NCBI GenBank assembly: GCA_016194745.1
Contig: JACQBA010000002.1
Coordinates: 43,582 to 107,581, forward strand
Length of the DNA stretch: 64,000 nt
DNA from: Elusimicrobiota bacterium
Lineage (GTDB): Bacteria; Elusimicrobiota; Elusimicrobia; UBA1565; JACRDR01
Direction: 5' to 3'
Positions 61,169 to 63,899 of this stretch are shown here, piece after piece. Made by a program: the position numbers and the translations under genes. The notes under the pieces are model-generated. The model was not told the DNA's origin. It saw nothing but the letters and a program-made list of their open reading frames with translations, and did no database searches. Each line of letters starts with the position of its first letter. The stretch's first letter is position 1.

Positions 61169-61478
61169 TTCGTTGGACCCGCGCCCGTCGGCAAGTGATA
61201 GAATACGATCGCGCGCTCGTAGACGATCTCCGCGGGAAGTTTGCAGATTACACAGAGGGGCTGTTCAAGAAGATTCTTGTCTGGAGGCAGGACCAGATTT
61301 TAGAGTACTTATTTCACCACTAGCATTGCTGGAAACTCCTTGATCATTGGGATGGACCTTAATAACTATACGACCACGGAGCGCGACCCTCCGAACGGTT
61401 CACTCTTCTGCTTGGCTTAGGCTATGACTTCGGCATTCCTCTTTGCACTCGCCGCAAAGTAGTAGAATACCGTTTGAT

Positions 61479-61810
61479 GCGCCCGTAGCTCAGTGGGTTA
61501 GAGCGCCCCGCTCAAGTTAGGGCTCCACGTCGAGGAATCGGCGGAGGATAACTGGGCAAATTGCCGGAATACCCTTAACGCCGGGAGAGCCACAGCGTAG
61601 CCGGAAACGGCAGCCGCGACGGCCAAAAATCTCCCGGATTGGGCAATCGGCAGCCAAGCCCGCCAATGGCGGGAAGGTTCAGAGACTATACGCCTAGGCC
61701 CCGCGAGGGGCATGATATAGTCCAGCCTACAACGCGAGCGTTCGCGGCCGGGGAAACTCGGAGTGGGAAGCATAACGGGGTGGTCGCAGGTTCAAGTCCT
61801 GCCGGGCGCA
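61479..61810 (+). tRNA. tRNA with CAU anticodon (probably Ile2), interrupted by an intron; mature form 74 nt, CCA not encoded
   Basis: GCGCCCGTAGCTCAGTGGGTTAGAGCGCCCCGCT[intron]CATAACGGGGTGGTCGCAGGTTCAAGTCCTGCCGGGCGCA; all four stems pair after removing 61513-61770. Confidence 0.93.
61513..61770 (+). other. group I intron (258 nt, no ORF) in the tRNA anticodon loop between U33 and C34
   Basis: U at 5' splice site, terminal G, P1 GCU|C / GGGC with U.G wobble, P4 strands TTGCCG/CGGCA, P7 strands CAGAGACTA/ATAGTCC. Confidence 0.9.
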
Positions 61811-61882
61811 GTCAATTTTCCAAGAAAGGCACGAACCAAGTTATTGAAGCACCGGTCGCCCGCTCAATTACGTAATAATGGC

Positions 61883-62338
61883 ATGGTCTCGAACCAATTC
61901 GCGATCGAAGTTCGCCTGATGCGGACTAAAGTACCGAGCTTCGACGCCTATCCGTTTTCGCTTCCCGCCATACGCAGTCTCGGTATTCTCGCGATCCACC
62001 CGGCAATCACCTTCTTCGTCGGCGAGAATGGCGCGGGGAAATCGACATTACTCGAGGCCATCGCCGTCGCCGCCGGGTTCAATCCGGAAGGAGGAACGAA
62101 GAACTTCCGGTTTGGGACGCGGATTTCGCACTCGCCGCTGCATGAATACCTGGGCATTACGAAGGGGGTCCGCCGGCCAAATGACGGCTTCTTTCTGCGC
62201 GCTGAGAGTTTTTTCAATGTCGCGACGGAGATTGAACGGCTGGGCGTAATCAACTCATACGGAGGGAGATCGTTGCACGAACAATCCCGCTGGTCGAAGG
62301 AACCAGTAAATCAGTCGTCTCCCGGAAAGGGCTCTTGA
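61883..62338 (+). pseudogene. AAA family ATPase, 3'-truncated (Walker A retained, Walker B absent)
   Basis: ITFFVGENGAGKSTLLEAIAVAAGFNPEGGTKNFRF...SFFNVATEIERL...YGGRSLHEQS then unrelated RWSKEPVNQSSPGKGS*. Confidence 0.8.
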
Positions 62339-62363
62339 CAGCGGACGTTCACTATATTACAAT
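62335..62363 (+). promoter_or_regulatory. near-consensus sigma70 promoter
   Basis: TTGACA, 17 nt, TACAAT; predicted start ~62370. Confidence 0.7.
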
Positions 62364-62374
62364 GTTCATTGACG

Positions 62375-63454
62375 ATGAACAATATAGTTTTAGAGAACGA
62401 GGTGATGAAACCTTGCCTGAAAACCCTTAAGGGCTTCCTGGGCAAGGACGTCATCGTCAATTTTCAACCGCGCGAAGAAAGAGGCCGCCCAGACTTTAGA
62501 TTAAGACTCCCCACTCAACCGCAGGTCGAAATCGTGGGAGAATGCAAGGCAAACGTCCTCACGAGGGCAGCCACCCTTCACCTCCTATTTCAAGCCCGTA
62601 GATACGCCGCCAAAAACGAGAAAGTCATCCTATTCGCAAAATGGATTCCGGAAGCCGTAGCCGAAGAGTTGCGGCAAGCCGGAGCCTACTTTGTCGATAC
62701 CGCAGGCAACGCCTACCTCTGGAACCCTCCTCATATGCTTATCGATATCCGGGGGAAACGTCTGACGGCGTATATTGGCCCCGAACCAGGTAGGTTGATG
62801 GAAGTCGGCGGGCTTAAGATCCTCCACTTTCTGCTGACGCAGCCCCAACTCATCGACCAACCGCTTCGCGTTATCGCCGAACAAGCCAACGTGGCCCTCG
62901 GAACAGCGCACAAAGTCATGCATGAGCTCATGCTCGCGCGCATGCTGCTACCCGGCCCCCATGGGACGAGACGCTTCGGGGACGTTAAGAACATGATCGA
63001 CACCTTCGTCCGCGGCTACGCGCTTAAGCTGCGGCCACACTGCATTATAGGCCGCTACCGGCACCGGCAAAATCATCCGGACGCAGTCCAGGCCGCAATT
63101 CAAGAACGTCTAAGAAACACGCAAGCTCTATGGGCGCTTACCGGGGGGATGGCCGCAAAGCAACTGACTCGGCATCTTGAGCCGGACACGGTCGCGTTAT
63201 TCGTAGATGAAATTGCCGAGCAAGAACTAAAAAAAGAGCCCATGCTGCCGGACAACAACGGCAACGTAATCCTGCTGAGACTCTTCGGGCCCAATGCTCT
63301 TGGCCGTCCGGAAGTTGCTGGCCTGCCGCCTCTCGTCAGACCCCTCCTAATCTATGCCGAATTGCTGAACGATGGAGGCGCGCGAGAAGCAGAAACCGCC
63401 AATCTGATTTACGAACGAATCGAGCAAGAGGCTCCACTTGGACAGCGAACTTAA
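62375..63454 (+). CDS. AbiEi-like protein: PD-(D/E)XK-like N-domain plus winged-helix-like region
   Basis: GRPDFRLRLPTQPQVEIVGECKANVLTRAATLHLLFQARRYA; FVDTAGNAYLWNPPHMLIDIRGKR; QPLRVIAEQANVALGTAHKVMHELM. Confidence 0.65.
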   Translation: MNNIVLENEVMKPCLKTLKGFLGKDVIVNFQPREERGRPDFRLRLPTQPQVEIVGECKANVLTRAATLHLLFQARRYAAKNEKVILFAKWIPEAVAEELRQAGAYFVDTAGNAYLWNPPHMLIDIRGKRLTAYIGPEPGRLMEVGGLKILHFLLTQPQLIDQPLRVIAEQANVALGTAHKVMHELMLARMLLPGPHGTRRFGDVKNMIDTFVRGYALKLRPHCIIGRYRHRQNHPDAVQAAIQERLRNTQALWALTGGMAAKQLTRHLEPDTVALFVDEIAEQELKKEPMLPDNNGNVILLRLFGPNALGRPEVAGLPPLVRPLLIYAELLNDGGAREAETANLIYERIEQEAPLGQRT

Positions 63455-63899
63455 GAAAGCCGTTCTAGACGTTTACCGAACGGCCGAAAGCCTAGGCATC
63501 AAATGCGTCCTAGTCGGCGCGCTAATCTCCGAGTTGAGCCCAGAGATTGGCCCGGACTATCCGCGATTCCGAAGGACCAACGACGCCGACTTCGCGATCT
63601 ATGTGCCGGATTGGGCCGCATTTGGCACTCTCCGCGCGAAGCTGATCGAGCAAGCCTTCAAAGAGGACACAAGAACGGAGCACCGACTCCTAAAGGGTGC
63701 CGTCAAAGTGGATCTCATCCCCTACGGCGAGAGCATCGCTCCTCACGGCAAGCTCCATTGGCCAGACTCCGAGTTTGAAATGAACGTCATCGGTTTCAAA
63801 GAAGTGTGCGCCGCCGCCAATAATACGGTTCAAGAAGGCGGGCCGCAAATTCCAATCATTGTTGAGTTTCAGCGCCTAGTGGAATTTTCAGCCGTTTGA
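63438..63899 (+). CDS. nucleotidyltransferase-like protein (AbiEii-like partner)
   Basis: GIKCVLVGALISEL...RRTNDADFAIYVPDWAAFGTLRAKL...GAVKVDLIPYGE; TTG start overlapping the upstream ORF by 17 nt. Confidence 0.65.
   Translation: MDSELKKAVLDVYRTAESLGIKCVLVGALISELSPEIGPDYPRFRRTNDADFAIYVPDWAAFGTLRAKLIEQAFKEDTRTEHRLLKGAVKVDLIPYGESIAPHGKLHWPDSEFEMNVIGFKEVCAAANNTVQEGGPQIPIIVEFQRLVEFSAV

Follow-up and report, generated by a model that had tools for sequence, protein, structure and literature searches.

The anticodon loop of a tRNA gene from a bacterium of the phylum Elusimicrobiota is split by an insertion of 258 nt, which, judged from its sequence, is very probably a self-splicing group I intron located after U33 of tRNA-Ile2(CAU). 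The gene lies in the 64,000-nt stretch of DNA that was analysed, hereafter the window, and its parts are all on the + strand. It comprises a 5' exon with tRNA positions 1-33 [61479-61512], orthologous to the intronless tRNAs of many relatives, the intron [61513-61770], and a 3' exon with positions 34-73 [61771-61810], which does not encode CCA. An earlier note on this DNA had proposed that removing 61513-61770 restores a 74-nt cloverleaf with the loop CU-CAU-AA, and ARAGORN agrees, accepting the joined exons as such a tRNA(CAU). At default settings, ARAGORN found no tRNA in the window, and when introns were allowed on the unspliced gene it made a wrong call, tRNA-Leu(CAA). Upstream of the tRNA there is a putative -10-like box, TAGAAT [61463-61468], recognised by sequence comparison; similar boxes precede the tRNA in other relatives, and the segment AAAGTAGTAGAATACCG upstream of the intron-bearing tRNA is identical in the window and in the relative G048.

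Among 100 related genomes, the interrupted gene was found in three other Elusimicrobia, G048 (87% identity), G013 (83%) and G069 (78%), which represent three different families. Many of the 100 genomes have an uninterrupted orthologous tRNA with conserved exons, in which the empty site reads ...GCTCATAAC... and the loop is CTCATAA. In the window, the boundary is ambiguous (after U33, C34 or A35) because the CA at the start of the intron repeats the CA at the start of the 3' exon. The junctions of G048 are GCT/TAAATT...AAG/CATAAC, where the slashes mark the splice sites. Since the intron of G048 begins with T, only a break after U33 restores CAU, and splicing after C34 or A35 is ruled out. The insertion thus follows U33, as the earlier note had it, and the terminal G that it described (61770 in the window) is present in all four introns.

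The Rfam model of group I introns, RF00028, matches the + strand at 61465-61744 over its full length, with 41.7 bits and an E-value of 2.4e-9; the 3.9-Mb genome gave no other group I match. The covariance model called for in the earlier note therefore does detect a group I core, although its score is below the Rfam gathering score of 50. At the gathering threshold, Rfam found nothing at the window intron, which is why default pipelines miss it. The intron has a P3-P8 core with the elements P, Q, R and S (the strings named for them in the note are there, give or take one base), a U.G pair in P1 and a last base G. The search used the single group I model of Rfam; of the IC3 features, the GNRA loops of L2 and L9 fit, and the long P5 extension is absent from the other tRNA introns aligned. 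A homing endonuclease inside the intron was rejected, its length being only 258 nt, and a 91-aa ORF that spans it on the minus strand (61498-61773) is taken as incidental. The core pattern had no match in IMG/VR, which was searched for a viral home.

Folded alone, the precursor recovered P2 and P4-P9 unprompted, with a z-score of -4.15. In the alignment of the four genomes, P1-P9 are kept and 95.9% of the cells pair. Pairs changed on both sides number 19, compared with 6.5 in shuffled and 1-4 in slid versions of the alignment, small counts that come from four intron-bearing sequences. Helix P1, in which 61510-61513 (GCU/C) pairs with the guide 61520-61523 (GGGC), is formed in all four genomes and has in each the U33.G wobble at the 5' splice site; it is the pairing given in the note. 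P2 [61523-61546] is closed by a GNRA loop, which is GGAA, GCAA, GTAA and GCAA in the four genomes. The 5' strand of P3 [61552-61557] pairs with 61692-61697 in 100% of the cells, with one pair changed on both sides. The fold and the alignment both give P4, composed of element P [61562-61567] and element Q [61647-61652], and P6/P6a [61653-61678]. P5 [61572-61574 with 61641-61643] bears an extension [61581-61637] of about 57 nt with a GNRA loop and, on its 3' strand, an A-rich bulge; four pairs in this region are changed on both sides. All four members have the extension, and none of the other aligned Elusimicrobia introns showed it; to P5abc of larger group I introns it bears a resemblance and no more. 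P7, made of element R [61684-61690] and element S [61716-61722], is supported by RF00028, the fold and the alignment. The hairpin P8 [61698-61711] has two pairs changed on both sides, and P9 [61726-61767], with the inner hairpins 61733-61746 and 61748-61761, the latter with a GAAA loop, has five.

Three tRNA(CAU) genes were collected by search from the genome: L063, L015 and the interrupted gene. L063 has a C1:A72 mismatch, as in initiator tRNA. The earlier note had called the interrupted gene tRNA-Ile(CAU) from its body and anticodon loop, and here the identity stands while the argument does not: loop and T arm are no proof of Ile2, because elongator tRNA-Met shares the loop CUCAUAA. The gene could accordingly be read as elongator tRNA-Met, so that Met decoding, and not AUA decoding, would depend on splicing. 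Whole-sequence identity does place L015 closer to E. coli ileX (score 44) than to metU (22). The acceptor stems point the other way. The pairs C4:G69 and C5:G68 are those read by TilS in E. coli, and C4:G69 is also read by IleRS. Both are present in E. coli ileX, and both are invariant among the orthologues of the interrupted tRNA that have no intron (17/17 distinct sequences), whose positions 2 and 3 are variable. In the L015 family, G1 G2 C3 G4 is constant (14/14), and the invariant G2 and C3 match metU. On this conservation we rejected the elongator identity, which we hold to be highly unlikely, and we assign the interrupted gene to tRNA-Ile2 and L015 to elongator Met. The assignment is drawn from the conserved acceptor positions together with knowledge of TilS and IleRS recognition.

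The gene for TilS, which the note had suggested looking for, is present in the genome, and no tRNA-Ile(UAU) was found among the tRNAs collected. Nor did the search of the assembly (88% complete) turn up a second tRNA-Ile2 gene, so that within it the gene is, as the note had supposed it might be, the only tRNA-Ile(CAU). In the ORFs of the window, about one codon in 1000 is AUA. The gene might instead be a tRNA-Ile2 pseudogene with a decayed intron, another copy doing the work. The incompleteness of the assembly leaves room for such a copy, the RF00028 score is under the gathering score, and some relatives have extra, damaged copies of tRNA-Ile2. We nevertheless consider this extremely improbable. 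All tRNA stems and intron helices are kept in four genomes with compensatory changes, the copy found is single in the genome of the window, and where intronless second copies do occur, in G048 and G013, it is these that are damaged (a broken acceptor stem; a 3' half only), while the intron-bearing copy is intact.

If the gene is tRNA-Ile2 interrupted by a self-splicing intron, the precursor would be transcribed and would fold so that the exon bases GCU and the first base of the intron pair with the guide GGGC in P1. Cleavage after U33 by a guanosine would follow, the 3'-OH of U33 would then attack after the terminal G at 61770, and the joining of U33 to C34 would create the anticodon loop. TilS would subsequently modify C34, which would allow the tRNA to read AUA. 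Because the intron immediately precedes the anticodon and the search gave no further copy of the gene, we infer that AUA decoding would depend on the ribozyme, which presumably splices autonomously. Standard pipelines lose such genes, since ARAGORN misses or miscalls the tRNA and the default cut-off of Rfam misses the intron; therefore a missing tRNA-Ile2 in such genomes may be an annotation gap.

A search through 345 genomes of the phylum gave no further member of this intron family, and partial core matches in three genomes. An exact 20-base core pattern was found in three records among 85,488 GTDB species, all of them Elusimicrobia metagenome-assembled genomes (REEB145, GWA2_69_24 and NC_groundwater_1299), in a test that would miss divergent introns. 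In a tree of introns made from 168 core columns, in which deep branches are weak, the U33 tRNA-Ile2 introns form a clade of their own (support 95), whose sister group is composed of the tRNA-Arg(UCU) introns (support 91). The latter, which follow U34 in the Elusimicrobia G094, G089 and G061, have a P9 region similar to that of the window intron, but they reside in a different tRNA at a different site and lack the P5 extension.

The same host gene carries the group I intron (IC3) of Azoarcus sp. BH72, which likewise interrupts the anticodon loop of tRNA-Ile(CAU) and whose guide, of 3 nt, is short like that of the window intron. Nor is the Azoarcus tRNA-Ile intron known to have a large ORF. The in vivo tag triplet of the Azoarcus ribozyme is the isoleucine anticodon CAU, which is paired by the guide (PMC6274277). 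Since the guide pairs with this triplet, the Azoarcus intron follows U36. The window intron does not have this arrangement of insertion after U36 and a guide GUG on CAU: in the four genomes a break after U33 alone gives CAU, and the guide GGGC pairs with GCU/C. The difference in site, which the earlier note suggested, is thus borne out. The window intron differs from that of Azoarcus further in its P5 extension, in a P9 with two inner hairpins and in its Elusimicrobiota host.

An Azoarcus-type site does occur in the same tRNA and bacterial order as the window intron. In G019, tRNA-Ile2(CAU) has an intron after U36, and not after U33, with the guide GTG (L104, C29:31117-31439). The tree places this intron, on a long branch, among the tRNA-Asn introns, apart from the U33 clade. 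Because the U36 site is held by an unrelated intron, the U33 and U36 sites are distinct, and by the placements in the tree two unrelated introns have entered the anticodon loop of tRNA-Ile2 at two positions. The tRNA of the Azoarcus model ribozyme would thereby have a second, independent intron site, so that a comparison of insertion-site choice and P1 pairing becomes possible within a single tRNA.

In bacteria, four interrupted tRNA genes were counted in a 2007 paper, which also described the fMet intron of Synechocystis, which carries the homing endonuclease gene I-Ssp6803I (PMC1995217). This is also a group I intron of the anticodon loop, and the loop CUCAUAA is that of the window tRNA, in a different tRNA; U33 may already be known as the fMet intron site. 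According to a review, the hosts are cyanobacteria and the alpha- and beta-proteobacteria (PMC4033280), and another paper already reports that Acidovorax and Burkholderia have group I introns in tRNA-Ile2 (PMC8450103). The kind of intron is known, given these reports and that of Azoarcus. The U33 site in tRNA-Ile, when set against the Azoarcus site, the P5 extension and the host phylum look new, and our literature search found no paper linking Elusimicrobia with group I introns.

RF00028 matches were found in 56 of 238 Elusimicrobia genomes and 40 of 65 genera (L099-L184), and insertion sites were assigned by ARAGORN together with the rule of U before and G last. The commonest tRNA site is in tRNA-Asn(GUU) after U35. 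Others are in Leu(UAA) and fMet after U33, Arg(UCU) after U34, Phe(GAA) after U31 and Ile2 after U33 or U36. Neither tRNA-Asn nor tRNA-Phe is among the group I tRNA hosts named in the literature found. The tRNA-Phe introns (L107, L108 and L110, of G037, G046 and G047) lie at the border of stem and loop; L108 and L110 follow U31, an unusual position outside the loop proper. Several further RF00028 matches are apparently in 23S rRNA sequence, as judged by eye.

The carriers of the U33 intron are scattered over four families and have intronless neighbours, such as G038, which belongs to the same genus as G048. This pattern suggests lateral gain or repeated loss, and the sporadic occurrence of the intron allele among relatives makes a lateral gain probable. 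The intron has no endonuclease of its own; reverse splicing may have spread it, or it may have moved along with the tRNA locus. In G002, G013, G019 and G029, stretches of 1.3-2.2 kb are flanked by half or additional tRNA-Ile2 copies, several of which end at the anticodon arm, and tRNA-Ile2 looks like a recurrent integration site (L078, L079, L080, L081 and L082). Judged by eye, genes in the stretches are Fic-like, AlbA-like or lysozyme-like, and there is no obvious integrase. The left copy in G013 and G019 is intact and contains the intron, which is missing from the right-hand half copy. We hypothesise that an integrating cassette brought the intron in. A splice-competent intron could also be kept as a shield, by breaking the attachment site that integrating elements use in the anticodon loop, and the recurrent use of this loop would give it something to protect against. 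That explanation seems to us quite improbable: G013 and G019 carry such a stretch beside an intron-bearing copy, so that any protection is incomplete, no integrase was identified in the stretches, and a neutral passenger explains the data equally well.

A wider reading, which we offer tentatively as possible rather than probable, would join these observations. Elusimicrobia would be an unreported reservoir of tRNA group I introns, inserted at U31-U36 in at least six tRNAs, with two unrelated introns at different positions of the tRNA-Ile2 loop; the U33 family, marked by its P5 extension, would be cassette-borne, moving with integrating tRNA cassettes and not by an endonuclease of its own.

The contig of the window ends 2.2 kb downstream of the tRNA, and no second half copy of tRNA-Ile2 was found in the assembly. 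The segment directly downstream of the tRNA [61763-63899], which reaches almost to the end of the contig, resembles a defence-type island placed at the tRNA; its genes are a short ORF with an AAA domain, one like an AbiEi_2 antitoxin and a small unassigned ORF. Elsewhere, in G000, a segment of contig C15 (L065, 33300-36100) packs over 20 tRNA genes densely into 2.5 kb, with many isotypes duplicated, as arrays in phages or mobile elements do.
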